From the IMG/VR virus record IMGVR_UViG_3300037189_023106, positions 1-29,115 of that record: 29,115 bases of DNA; one strand, written 5' to 3'. Below the pieces are notes generated by a model, which ran no database searches, had not been told where the DNA came from, and was given only the letters and a program-made list of their open reading frames with translations. Both the position numbers and the translations under genes were made by a program. Source of the stretch: a virus. Each line of letters opens with the position of its first letter. The stretch's first letter is position 1. Shown here one piece after another: positions 5,380 through 8,683 of this stretch.

Positions 5380-5408
5380 TTGATTGCCTAGCGCAATCAT
5401 CGGATAAT
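5380..5408 (+). promoter_or_regulatory. Sigma70-type promoter with inverted repeat in the spacer
   Basis: TTGATT (5380-5385), 17-base spacer, GATAAT (5403-5408), predicted start near 5415. An inverted repeat TGATTGC (5381-5387) / GCAATCA (5393-5399), 5-base loop, spans the -35 hexamer and the spacer, where a regulator could block polymerase. It would drive the surface-protein gene at 5441 separately from the fibre genes. No T-tract follows, so a terminator reading is less likely. Confidence 0.55.
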
Positions 5409-5440
5409 CTCACTGCCCACCAAACCGCAGCGAGGTGTCC

Positions 5441-7057
5441 GTGAATAAACTCTTTGTTATCGGTTGTACTTTGTGGCTTATTGCCGCAACGCTTGTGTAT
5501 TCCATTGTTGTTTCGCCAGTTCATGGCGCTCAAAACAGTTATGTAGATCGCACGCAAGACTTCTGGATTACTGTTCCCGAGCAAAGCCTCCTTCACATTT
5601 GGACTGATCTGTGTGACAACAGCACCGCTGGATGGTGCCCCGGAACCGTTGACTCCATGCTCTGGCTATATGACAGCAATGGAAATCTTATTGCCGCCAA
5701 TGATGACTCGTACACTGAGCACACGGGTGGATATTCCCTTGCTTCAACAATCCGAATTTCTGTTCCAGCGGGAAACTATCGAGTTCGTGCTGGCGTGTGC
5801 TGCGGAGACCCAACGGCAGATCGGTTCTATGGAAATCATTACTACATGATTAGCAACTTTGAGGCGGAGCTTGCGCCGGGAACTCCTTCGGCAACATGGA
5901 CCCCAACGCCCCCACCAACCCCTACACCCACACCTACCCCAACACCAACTCCTGAACCAACGCCAACCCCTACACCAGAGCCAACTCCAACCCCAGAGCC
6001 AGATCCGTACCTTAATGTTCCTACGGGACTCATGGTTACGGTTTATTCTGACGGAAGTGTCTACTTGACTTGGGATGCCCCAGAGGCAAGCAATGTGGAC
6101 ATTGAACGATACGGCGTTTTCTGGACAACAGGAGACCTTGCGGGTTGGGGGGCGCCAGCCTTGGGAACAAACATGACCATTGCCAACAGCGTATTTATTG
6201 AGAATGGAGGAGTTGATGCTACCTACACATTCTGGATTCGAGCAGACAACGACAGCCAACACGTGTACTCAGAGTCCTCACCAAGGGTTTCAGTGTTCGT
6301 GCCGCGTATCCCAGAACCCGAGCCAAGCCCAACCCCAACCCCTACGGAGGTACCATCCATTGAGCCAACCCCAGACCCGACTGCCACACCCGAGCCGACG
6401 CCCGAACCGACCGTGGAGCCTACCCCAACTCCTACGCGCGAACCTGTTCCTAGTGATCCTTCTAGCCCTGAGCCTACACCACGTCCTAGCCCGTCCGTAG
6501 ACCCGTCTAGGAGCCCCGTAGAGCCGAGTTTACCCCCAACCCCCTCTCCTAGCCCAGACCCAACAGAAACGCCCCTAGAAACCCCAATTCCGACGGAGGT
6601 ACCAACCCCTGAACCTAGCCCATCTGCTGCTCCTGAAAATCCGCTTGAGGCGGCTGGAGCTGCGGTTGAGGCTGTTGGAGAGGCAGTTGGTGCGGTTGCA
6701 GAAGCGGCTGCCGAAGCCGTAGGCGCTGCTGCCGAGGTAGTTGCAGAAGCAGTCGGCGCGGCGGTAGACAAAGTCGCCAATCTCGGTAAAGATATTACTG
6801 AAGAAAAGCGTCAGGAGCTTCGCACCGTTGTCGGCCCTGCCGTCATCATGACCCAGATTGCCCAGGCTGCTGCCGCTGCTGCGGGTGCCGCCCGAGGCGG
6901 TAATGGCGGTGGCGGTGGCGGATTTGGTGGCGGTGATGGTGGCGGCGATAAGCCCAAGGGCGGAAAGCGCTCGTCACGCAGGTCAGGAAATCGGGCTGCT
7001 GGGAAGTCCCCGGCAGGAAAGTCGGCCCCCAAGCCATTGAATAGGAGAAACCGCTGA
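5441..7057 (+). CDS. Secreted, probably membrane-anchored surface protein (PPC-like, Fn3-like, Pro-rich, Ala-rich)
   Basis: GTG at 5441 is preferred over GTG at 5435 because GAGG (5432-5435) is then correctly spaced; this gives 538 residues. Residues 1-30 are a Sec signal peptide (basic NK, hydrophobic core, cleavage near VHG-AQ). Residues about 33-145 form a beta-sandwich like bacterial pre-peptidase C-terminal (PPC) domains, with four cysteines suited to disulfides. Then come a Pro-Thr linker (PTPTPTPEPTP), an Fn3-like domain (about 190-290), a second Pro-rich linker, and an Ala/Val/Glu helical stretch. An uncharged hydrophobic segment (VVGPAVIMTQIAQAAAA) follows, then a Gly-rich and strongly basic tail ending NRRNR. 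Signal peptide, hydrophobic segment and basic tail suggest a type I anchored protein displayed outside the host. Role unknown; superinfection exclusion or surface modification are possibilities. A virion decoration is the alternative. Confidence 0.6.
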   Translation: MNKLFVIGCTLWLIAATLVYSIVVSPVHGAQNSYVDRTQDFWITVPEQSLLHIWTDLCDNSTAGWCPGTVDSMLWLYDSNGNLIAANDDSYTEHTGGYSLASTIRISVPAGNYRVRAGVCCGDPTADRFYGNHYYMISNFEAELAPGTPSATWTPTPPPTPTPTPTPTPTPEPTPTPTPEPTPTPEPDPYLNVPTGLMVTVYSDGSVYLTWDAPEASNVDIERYGVFWTTGDLAGWGAPALGTNMTIANSVFIENGGVDATYTFWIRADNDSQHVYSESSPRVSVFVPRIPEPEPSPTPTPTEVPSIEPTPDPTATPEPTPEPTVEPTPTPTREPVPSDPSSPEPTPRPSPSVDPSRSPVEPSLPPTPSPSPDPTETPLETPIPTEVPTPEPSPSAAPENPLEAAGAAVEAVGEAVGAVAEAAAEAVGAAAEVVAEAVGAAVDKVANLGKDITEEKRQELRTVVGPAVIMTQIAQAAAAAAGAARGGNGGGGGGFGGGDGGGDKPKGGKRSSRRSGNRAAGKSPAGKSAPKPLNRRNR

Positions 7058-7257
7058 TGAACTGGAAGAACATTGGATCGCAGATCATTAACGAACTTGT
7101 GTCGCAGTCGTGGACCATCTTTGGTCTGCTTGTGGGCTGGATTGTCCTCCCAGACGGCGAGACCCGAAACTTTGTTGGAGTAGTGTTGGCGTCTCTGTCA
7201 CTCGCGTGGCTGGTGACAATGCCGCTTCGCCTCTCGTGGGGCAGCGACGAGGAGTAG
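7057..7257 (+). CDS. Small two-helix membrane protein coupled to the surface protein
   Basis: 66 residues; its ATG shares one base with the TGA of the surface-protein gene (TGATG), so the two are translationally coupled. An SD (TAGGAG) lies within the end of that gene. Two hydrophobic segments, about residues 17-33 (SWTIFGLLVGWIVL) and 38-57 (FVGVVLASLSLAWLVTMPL), are joined by a short charged loop; the C-terminus is acidic (SDEE). Size and topology would fit a small holin, but a better holin candidate lies on the other strand at 7524-7922. Coupling instead suggests a membrane partner of the surface protein. Its stop codon directly abuts the stop of the convergent zinc-ribbon gene. Confidence 0.55.
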   Translation: MNWKNIGSQIINELVSQSWTIFGLLVGWIVLPDGETRNFVGVVLASLSLAWLVTMPLRLSWGSDEE

Positions 7258-7461
7258 TTAGCCGATAACGATATCGGTGTTCTGAGGGATCTTCTCTTGC
7301 CAGGCCCAGCCTGAACCCTTGTAGACAACTTTGGGGGCAGAGAAGGTCACTCGCATCTCACCGCTGCACTTCTCGCAGATGACCTTAGCATCATCAGACA
7401 TGGGTCGGACTACCTCTACTACAAGGTCACAAGGCTTGCATTGAAAGTCATATCTAGCCAT
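7258..7461 (-). CDS. FmdB-type zinc ribbon protein
   Basis: 67 residues starting at the ATG at 7461; a longer frame to 7491 would run back into the terminator hairpin and is not preferred. Starts MARYDFQCKPCDL, with CxxC pairs at residues 8/11 and 29/32, the spacing of a zinc ribbon. It continues to a KGSGW motif at the end, the classic outline of the FmdB/CxxC putative regulatory family (M-P-x-Y-x-Y-x-C-x-x-C ... KGSGF). Likely binds one zinc ion; the molecular role of the family is poorly defined, and regulation is only a name-based guess. It has no SD; the -10-like TATACT six bases upstream suggests a leaderless mRNA. Confidence 0.75.
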   Translation of the reverse strand: MARYDFQCKPCDLVVEVVRPMSDDAKVICEKCSGEMRVTFSAPKVVYKGSGWAWQEKIPQNTDIVIG

Positions 7462-7467
7462 ATTTGC

Positions 7468-7473
7468 AGTATA
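7468..7473 (-). promoter_or_regulatory. Extended -10 for a leaderless zinc-ribbon transcript
   Basis: On the minus strand TGT-TATACT is followed by exactly six bases (GCAAAT) and the ATG at 7461. A start point about seven bases below the hexamer would fall on the A of the ATG. No -35 match is present, because the hairpin at 7477-7504 occupies that area, but TGn-TATACT fits an extended -10. It lies three bases below the hairpin arm. Confidence 0.5.
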
Positions 7474-7476
7474 ACA

Positions 7477-7504
7477 GAAGACCCACCCCAAAGGGTGGGT
7501 CTTC
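7477..7504 (-). terminator. Perfect 12-bp hairpin terminator after the lysis genes
   Basis: GAAGACCCACCC (7477-7488) pairs perfectly with GGGTGGGTCTTC (7493-7504) around a 4-base loop. Reading minus, the arm ends GGGTCTTC and continues TGTTAT, a weak U-rich tail. It lies 19 bases beyond the holin stop and so probably ends the endolysin-holin message. Confidence 0.65.
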
Positions 7505-7523: not shown

Positions 7524-7922
7524 TTACTTGGTCTCTTCTGCATCAACTTCGTGGAACTCGTGGGCATCTTCGTTAGCAAGGCTTCCTGCAAGTTCATCCG
7601 GAATGCCATCCCCATCGGTGTCAATGGCGCTTCCAGTGATGTGCGAGGTGCTTGCCGCCTCTTCTCGAGCAACCTTAGCCTTGCCAACGCCGAACTTGGC
7701 ATCCTCTGGGTTCAAGGCGCGCACAATGATCTGAAGGCAGGCAGCAAGGCCAGCCGAGACCACGGTGCGGAAGTCGCCGCCCGAGATGTCAAGAAGCGGA
7801 ATGCCAAGACCGAGGGCAACGGCGATAGATGTCCCGAGGAAGGCGCGACCAGCCTCAAGGAGCATTTCGTCAATACCCGTGTTGTCCATAATCCACTTGA
7901 GCTTTGTCGTGATTGCGTTCAT
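7524..7922 (-). CDS. Holin, r1t-like, with acidic calcium-motif tail
   Basis: 132 residues from the ATG at 7922, chosen over an upstream GTG at 7958 because AGAGAGGG sits just before it and because the longer form would overlap the endolysin gene. Two hydrophobic segments (about residues 26-44 and 51-68, with SAGLAACLQIIVRAL) match the layout of r1t-type phage holins (two helices, the second starting V-S-A-G-L-A). It follows the endolysin gene by 11 bases. The C-terminal 60 residues are hydrophilic and acidic and contain DTDGDGIPDE (101-110), the pattern of a calcium-binding DxDGDGxxD loop. Role: pore in the host membrane releasing lysin at the end of infection. Family assignment is by pattern and context. 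Confidence 0.7.
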   Translation of the reverse strand: MNAITTKLKWIMDNTGIDEMLLEAGRAFLGTSIAVALGLGIPLLDISGGDFRTVVSAGLAACLQIIVRALNPEDAKFGVGKAKVAREEAASTSHITGSAIDTDGDGIPDELAGSLANEDAHEFHEVDAEETK

Positions 7923-7933
7923 AAATCCCTCTC

Positions 7934-8683
7934 TTACTTGTTTACGTGCTGACCGCACGCGGGGCAGGGCGCAGGCTTGACTGGCGCCACTGGCGCAGGA
8001 GCCGGCGCTGGAGTCTCAACTGGAGCGACCCAACCCTTTGGTGCGCTAACAATAATAACATGCTTAAATGCTGGGGCAACATGTGCCTTTGATACACGCT
8101 TGCTATCGGCGAGCTTTAGCAGGGTGTCCTCACTGATGAGAACGCCAAACTGCTCGTTACCCTTGCCCGAGCGCGTTGGGCATGCCCACTGCCAGCCAAG
8201 ATCCTTGTCCCAGGCGGCTGCGGTCATATGCCCATAACCGCTTGCAATGTGTTTAGGGTCTTTCTTATAGCCCCCGCCACCCTTGCCCCACCACTTAGCC
8301 CACTTTGTGTGCCAAGCGCTGATTTCAAGTCCGGCTGGATAGCCAATAGGCTGCTGAACCCAAACGCCAATGGCTGCGCCAGCCTTGGCTGAGGCAACTA
8401 CATCGTTCCAGTCTTTTGCCCAGCGGGCTTCTGCGCCAAGAACTTTTGCCGTCTTAATAAGATCGCCAAGAGACGATCCATTGTCGCTAACGCCCTGCTT
8501 TTCAACAAAACCAGTAGCCTTTGCCTTAGCGGCAATGCCATCGCCAGCGGAGAAATCTTTTCCTGCGGCGTATTTAAACGCCCACGATACGCATGCGGCA
8601 ATGCTTGACGGACCGCAGTCGTCTAAGATGCCGCCCTTTTCCTCGTGATCAAGCTGAGACTTGACCTTGAACTGGAGTGCCAT
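7934..8683 (-). CDS. Endolysin, C39-like cysteine peptidase / amidase
   Basis: 249 residues with strong SD AAGGAGGT before the ATG. Residues 20-32 (LDDCGPSSIAACV) give the cysteine nucleophile (Cys23) in the D-C-G-P-S context of C39-like papain-fold enzymes; His152 in GYGHMTAAAWD with Asp159 completes a plausible catalytic set. A Pro-Ala linker (about 220-238) is followed by CPACGQH at the C-terminus, a possible half zinc site or wall contact. No signal peptide is visible, as expected for a holin-released lysin. The holin gene follows directly. Cleavage of a peptide bond in peptidoglycan is inferred from family and context; the exact bond is not readable. Also similar in outline to C39 peptidases that process leader peptides, but context favours lysis. 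Confidence 0.75.
   Translation of the reverse strand: MALQFKVKSQLDHEEKGGILDDCGPSSIAACVSWAFKYAAGKDFSAGDGIAAKAKATGFVEKQGVSDNGSSLGDLIKTAKVLGAEARWAKDWNDVVASAKAGAAIGVWVQQPIGYPAGLEISAWHTKWAKWWGKGGGGYKKDPKHIASGYGHMTAAAWDKDLGWQWACPTRSGKGNEQFGVLISEDTLLKLADSKRVSKAHVAPAFKHVIIVSAPKGWVAPVETPAPAPAPVAPVKPAPCPACGQHVNK

Follow-up and report, generated by a model that had tools for sequence, protein, structure and literature searches.

A coupled gene pair of metagenomic phages predicted to encode a membrane-anchored surface protein with exchangeable tips and a two-helix partner

Anatomy of the gene pair

The window that we analyzed is a 29,115-nucleotide stretch of viral DNA, positions 1 to 29,115 of IMG/VR record IMGVR_UViG_3300037189_023106, and it contains two overlapping genes on the plus strand. 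Gene A (5441..7057) encodes a modular, predicted exported surface protein of 538 aa, as judged from its open reading frame, its domains and its relatives. Gene B (7057..7257) encodes a 66-aa protein in which hydropathy and alignment place two membrane segments, linked by a conserved VLPxGxTRxxxG turn, and its start overlaps the stop of gene A by 1 nt. An earlier reading made from the letters of this DNA (the sequence-only reading) had described the modular layout of A, the two membrane helices of B and the one-base overlap; on each of these points the open reading frames, the hydropathy profiles and a structural model agree with it.

The product of gene A, to which all residue numbers below refer, consists in order of a signal peptide, a tip, a first stalk, an Fn3-like domain, a second stalk, a membrane-proximal helix, a membrane segment and a basic tail. 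Translation begins at a GTG codon at 5441, the position at which the near relative L002 has ATG. The predicted signal peptide (5441..5530, plus strand, as are all features of A; residues ~1-30, from MNKLF to VYSIVVSPVHGA, with cleavage before Q) was recognized from hydropathy and homologues and is of the signal peptidase I type, its cleavage site lacking a lipobox cysteine. Signal peptides and topology were called throughout by simple hydropathy and not by dedicated predictors; by this measure the two hydrophobic segments of A are residues 6-24 (mean 2.26) and residues 463-481 (mean 1.48).

The tip (5531..5890) is a predicted beta sandwich that resembles the PPC domain in fold and motif only: the match to PF04151 reaches 17.5 bits (E=0.0076) and misses the Pfam cut-off of 25.9 bits, and the assignment draws in addition on alignment and an AlphaFold model. 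The PPC-like domain and its motif SxLWLYDxxGxLIAxNDD are kept in 31 aligned relatives. Cysteines occur in A at residues 9, 58, 66, 120 and 121, the last four of which lie in the tip and are conserved. Beyond the tip come the Pro-rich stalk 1 (5903..6007; residues 155-189, 35 residues) and the Fn3-like domain (6008..6301). A search of Pfam with A returned no fn3 match, and the Fn3 assignment comes from the AlphaFold model (mean pLDDT 76.5, pTM 0.45), which shows an Fn3 fold, and from Foldseek, whose matches are Fn3 proteins; one of them, a phage "Fibronectin type III" protein, aligned with the domain at 1.6 A over 103 columns with 34% identity. A second Pro-rich stalk (6302..6643; residues 288-401, 114 residues) brings the stalks to 149 residues, which at 0.31 nm per residue would span ~46 nm when fully stretched out; the median stalk length in the relatives is ~41 nm.

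The C-terminal part of A begins with an Ala/Glu/Val-rich helical repeat region (6644..6826) that ends in an NLGxDI(T) motif found in 59 of 59 relatives. It is followed by the predicted membrane segment (6827..6895, including VVGPAVIMTQIAQAAAAAAGAA), identified by hydropathy and alignment and marked by a conserved polar TQxAQ motif, and by a Gly-rich basic tail (6896..7054). As its last 54 residues include 14 K/R and 2 D/E, the tail would lie in the cytoplasm by the positive-inside rule.

Recurrence and coupling of A and B

Scans of IMG/VR confirmed that the family recurs beyond chance, with relatives of A at 32 loci and relatives of B at 38. The alignment of B drew on 86 IMG/VR loci, of which 80 were kept, and there are 59 non-identical A-B pairs after identical and truncated pairs are dropped; these counts take in related phages and are not numbers of independent events. 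The sequence of the window's lineage is wholly metagenomic, and gene calls in the relatives are mechanical. All 59 pairs share the C-terminal motif NLGxD..(E)ER..A...V.PAVI.TQ.AQ.A..AA in A. The sequence-only reading had staked its surface location on a signal peptide being kept in homologues, and a crude signal-peptide test was passed by 56 of the 59 A proteins, compared with 7 of 653 other ORFs (1.1%) at the same loci. The three A proteins that failed appear to have signal peptides nonetheless, with one arginine too many or a wrongly placed start.

Outside these records the family is scarce. Neither blastn with the A-B pair nor tblastn with gene B matched any GenBank phage, tblastn with the distant B of L069 gave at best noise (E=2), and no Pfam or PHROG family spans the pair. 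The sole relative among GenBank phages is a 944-aa "hypothetical protein" of Actinomycetia phage DSL-LC01 (WJZ48438.1), which is 41% identical to A over the Fn3 region. It has the same architecture as A, with a B-like hairpin fused at its C-terminus, and differs in its length and its Thr-rich stalks. The statement that no named system has this layout thus holds for Pfam, PHROG and GenBank phages, where this one unannotated CDS is all that we found. Scanned once for motifs of B, 84,980 bacterial species yielded no B, a motif-based result that distant forms could escape; an apparent bacterial homologue of B, L072, was a spurious coincidence with an aminotransferase.

The two genes are tightly coupled. 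They overlap by 1, 4 or 8 nt in 43 of the 59 pairs (by 4 nt in 35), and in DSL-LC01, L113 and L114 the A protein and the B-like hairpin form one ORF. L112, of the same lineage as DSL-LC01, has A and the B-like gene as separate genes with the 1-nt overlap seen in the window; directly behind the B-like gene of L112 there is a further two-helix gene of 73 aa (L112:9511-9732). The similarity of the hairpin to B itself is weak: the fused tail of DSL-LC01 scores a non-significant 2.1 bits against the B HMM, where shuffled sequences reach 11, and profile comparison gives a marginal match (probability 11%, E=0.003). The argument from fusion therefore leans on the order of the genes, their topology, the existence of a split form in L112 and the Fn3 and PA14 modules held in common. 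The Fn3 region, the PA14 domains and the layout connect the DSL-LC01 lineage to the window's family, and a tip profile from the window's lineage finds the PA14 domains of L112 (E=1e-14) and L114 (E=1e-13). We regard the fusion as the best evidence for joint action of A and B. Because a signal peptide and anchor are predicted across lineages, the coupling is conserved, and fusion occurs in a remote lineage, a picture of A as a protein that is exported, anchored in the membrane and active together with B is well supported as a prediction. It was also the central claim of the sequence-only reading, an anchored surface protein with a membrane partner, which accordingly stands as a prediction.

Neighboring genes on the fiber and lysis sides

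Upstream of A we noted a candidate promoter, TTGATT-17-GATAAT (5380..5408, plus strand), and an approximate ribosome-binding-like stretch of GAGGTG type (5430..5435, plus strand) in a context common to L002. That the pair has a promoter of its own can be upheld only in part: a similar site is present in L002 and L059, whereas the search found 1 site against 1.4 expected by shuffling, and in most relatives A overlaps another gene at its start. This third gene encodes a 61-aa protein with a coiled coil and a membrane helix and is located immediately upstream of A, whose start it overlaps in most cases. It accompanies 36 of the 59 pairs by a first test and three more by profile, and in seven further pairs it lies ~250-350 nt upstream of A; examples with an XhlA-like layout are L007:9819-10004, L102:3160-3345 and L106:8779-8964. 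It was not found in the window or its closest relatives. Since the third gene is so widespread, the typical unit appears to consist of three coupled genes, and the window has kept two of them.

The pair lies directly downstream of fiber-like genes in the window and most relatives. Window ORF 1727-2863 matches tail-fiber assembly in PHROG, and L102 has a fiber with an S74 chaperone upstream of A-B. In L067, L079 and L095, and probably in L076 and L058, glycosyltransferase-type genes take the place of the fiber. The pair is thus met beside fiber clusters in most phage relatives, with some behind glycosyltransferases instead and none in bacterial genomes by B motifs. The genes directly upstream of the cassette at L095:6369-8211 and L079:7073-8134 are glycosyltransferases of the Caps_synth and GlcNAc types.

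Adjoining tail-fiber genes, together with the frequency of Fn3 domains in minor tail proteins, are what one would see if A were itself a virion component, for instance a minor tail adhesin whose N-terminus is merely signal-peptide-like. We consider this very improbable, given that a predicted signal peptide and C-terminal membrane segment occur in all lineages against the low background among other ORFs, that the obligatory partner is a two-helix membrane protein, and that the conserved tip cysteines fit an oxidizing location.

Lysis genes are also close to the pair in many records, with 33 of the 59 loci having an endolysin gene within ~2.4 kb (downstream and on the same strand in 11) and L113 and L114 having a VanY endolysin beside their fused A-B gene. 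Read in this light, A-B and the upstream coiled-coil gene would be accessories in a lysis cassette, with the small, two-helix B as holin or antiholin and A as a spanin-fashion tether that helps in breaking an outer wall or glycan layer; the XhlA-like layout of the 61-aa gene fits as well, and its PHROG match to "hemolysin" is weak (E=0.038). Such a role seems to us unlikely. The endolysin is ~11-21 kb from A-B in six records and 64 kb away in a seventh (some of these records are closely related), a holin-like two-helix gene distinct from B stands beside the endolysin, and B matches no holin family in Pfam or PHROG. Measured against u-spanins, which have an N-terminal lipobox, a C-terminal helix and a diderm host, A has the C-terminal helix and no lipobox. 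Moreover, a hairpin fused to an ectodomain of 700-1100 aa is a poor fit for a pore, and a wall-breaking device is not expected to exchange tips. Because the distance to the endolysin varies, we take the constant neighbor of the pair to be the adsorption or glycan side and not lysis.

On the minus strand of the window, 7934-8683 encodes a candidate endolysin of the C39-like cysteine-peptidase type (GGILDDCGPSS), for which neither a convincing Pfam match nor a match in GenBank phages was found, and 7524-7958 encodes a two-helix holin-like protein; these are conserved across the family. A small FmdB-type zinc-ribbon ORF (7258-7491, minus strand) is convergent with B, and the two stops abut. Subtilases are encoded near the cassette at L113:11913-13331 and L039:1-720, and that of L113 starts in a signal-peptide-like manner.

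Tip exchange and the proposed role of the pair

Three tip folds were found on the same anchor: the PPC-like fold, PA14 and a CBM-like beta sandwich. The PPC-like tip is that of the window and most relatives, and its two branches can be aligned. PA14 (PF07691) exceeds the 24-bit Pfam cut-off in L102 (30.1 bits), L111 (30.5 bits), L039 (28.4 bits) and L112 (48 bits), and the A protein of the window has no PA14 domain by the same family; in L039 and L035, PA14 stands in place of the Fn3-like domain. Among solved structures, the PA14 domain of L112 is matched best by RsgI3 and also by another PA14 protein. The CBM-like tip belongs to no Pfam family, and its model (pLDDT 77) matches the jelly roll of carbohydrate-binding modules, including CBM29, CBM35, CBM6 and related modules, at TM-scores of ~0.4-0.5. 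All three are types frequent in glycan-binding proteins, and we predict that the tips bind glycans.

Even where the flanking genes of two phages are ~90-100% identical, their tips can differ. L102 and L104 have endolysins that are 97% identical and several neighbors at 97-100%, with unrelated tips; L106 and L107 have identical B proteins and unrelated tips; and between L005 and L075 the tip is swapped within the PPC superfamily. In the other direction, the tips of L094 and L101 are 98% identical with endolysins at 71%, and those of L103 and L104 are 96% identical with fibers at 54%. These comparisons were made at the protein level, as the DNA aligner scored shuffled DNA at 74%. As tips differ in near-identical phages and recur in distant ones, we conclude that they move as modules. 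When tip profiles were run against all ORFs of the fetched loci, the matches were A proteins alone, with none in fiber genes. Tip and neighboring fiber show weak covariation (partial rho 0.34 across 144 pairs that are not independent, with shared ancestry as a confounder), so masking of the phage's own receptor is not required, and the target of the tip may be the own receptor, competing phages or other surfaces.

Several known systems offer a comparison. The superinfection-exclusion lipoprotein Ltp of Streptococcus phage TP-J34 consists of an anchor, a Ser-rich spacer and an active domain (PMC3952083), and A, as known from sequence, resembles it as a phage-encoded protein with a predicted host-membrane anchor, a low-complexity spacer and a distal domain that would be exposed on the cell surface, which for Ltp is Gram-positive. 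Ltp differs in having a lipid anchor, a repeat domain, a Ser-rich spacer and the tape-measure protein as its target, whereas A is anchored by a C-terminal helix, is paired with a two-helix protein and bears exchangeable tips of lectin type; an Ltp-type lipobox cysteine was not found at the A cleavage site. Cor (T1, HK022, N15, phi80) and Llp (T5) are likewise encoded downstream of genes for tail fibers or receptor binding: directly behind tail fiber clusters lies the cor locus, which has two extra membrane proteins (PMC13164509), and llp adjoins a receptor-binding gene, such proteins stopping unproductive adsorption to fragments of lysed cells (PMC9586334). Cor and Llp keep phage off infected cells and debris, an effect that we propose for A by analogy. 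Unlike A, they are small lipoproteins of the outer membrane, act by jamming FhuA from its periplasmic side and have neither stalk nor lectin-type tip, and A, at 538 aa and without a lipobox, falls outside their size and lipobox class. CwpV of Clostridioides difficile, a large surface protein of modular build with variable types of repeat, confers phage exclusion; it differs in being a host-encoded cell-wall protein that blocks after adsorption (PMC4737114). By analogy, A-B would act like Ltp, Cor and Llp, yet it stands outside all three families.

Our preferred reading, which we hold tentatively and at somewhat less than an even chance, is that A-B is a display cassette that would present a tip of glycan-binding type on the outside of the infected cell and thereby hinder adsorption. 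The signal peptide would export A, the C-terminal helix would hold it in the cytoplasmic membrane, and the two-helix hairpin of B may pack on the A helix to stabilize or cluster A. The Pro-rich stalks, long enough to pass a thick wall, would carry the tip through the envelope, where it may bind a glycan carried by the host surface or by an arriving phage; the bound tip would then hinder further phages on the infected cell and progeny on debris. The fiber-adjacent position, the exchange of tips and the precedents of Ltp and Cor/Llp are what point to control of adsorption, and an adsorption block fits this anatomy, gene position and analogy best. Counting against exclusion, A is not a lipoprotein, unlike the Ltp- and Cor-type proteins; in addition, exclusion proteins are usually expressed early, and the A-B pair sits among late-type genes.

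The same tip exchange would also fit varied targets of adhesion, in which the tip sticks infected cells to neighbors, particles or glycans in the manner of a flocculin, reaching new hosts or protecting the cell. In layout, a membrane-anchored repetitive stalk with a PA14/GLEYA tip does resemble yeast flocculins, but the hosts are presumed to be planktonic lake bacteria, and we rate adhesion as rather improbable. To a surface sensor, whose tip would detect an outside ligand and pass a signal to B along the A helix, for instance to time lysis, we give a still smaller chance. RsgI anti-sigma factors, host-type sensors with one membrane helix and interchangeable glycan-binding (PA14 or CBM) ectodomains, make the idea attractive, as do the RsgI3 match of L112, the conserved TQxAQ in the A helix and the obligate pairing with B. 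RsgI proteins, however, are bacterial, have the opposite topology and carry a cytoplasmic anti-sigma domain, whereas the tail of A has no recognizable cytoplasmic domain and no regulator is encoded with the pair.

More broadly, A-B, in many phages together with the coupled coiled-coil membrane gene, may represent an unnamed cassette class with a constant anchor and swappable glycan-binding tips, in which B senses or controls the surface and the whole serves as tip-programmable exclusion or as a lysis-timing sensor; we think this possible and, on balance, doubtful. If an adsorption role is true, large phages of uncultured lake bacteria would re-dress their hosts with programmable adhesins, and there would be named genes with which to test superinfection control in freshwater bacteria. 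The best-studied surface-acting phage exclusion proteins (Ltp, Cor and Llp) are lipoproteins, and A would be a modular, stalked addition to them. The tip swaps between near-identical phages are natural experiments on specificity.

The host of the window's lineage may differ from that of DSL-LC01. A host call by the large terminase was set aside, as it gave weak matches to many unrelated phages. WhiB was absent from 17 of 17 records searched in the window's lineage, and an actinobacterial host is therefore unsupported for the window. Two records of the DSL lineage (L112 and L113) do encode WhiB, and the two lineages may infect different phyla.
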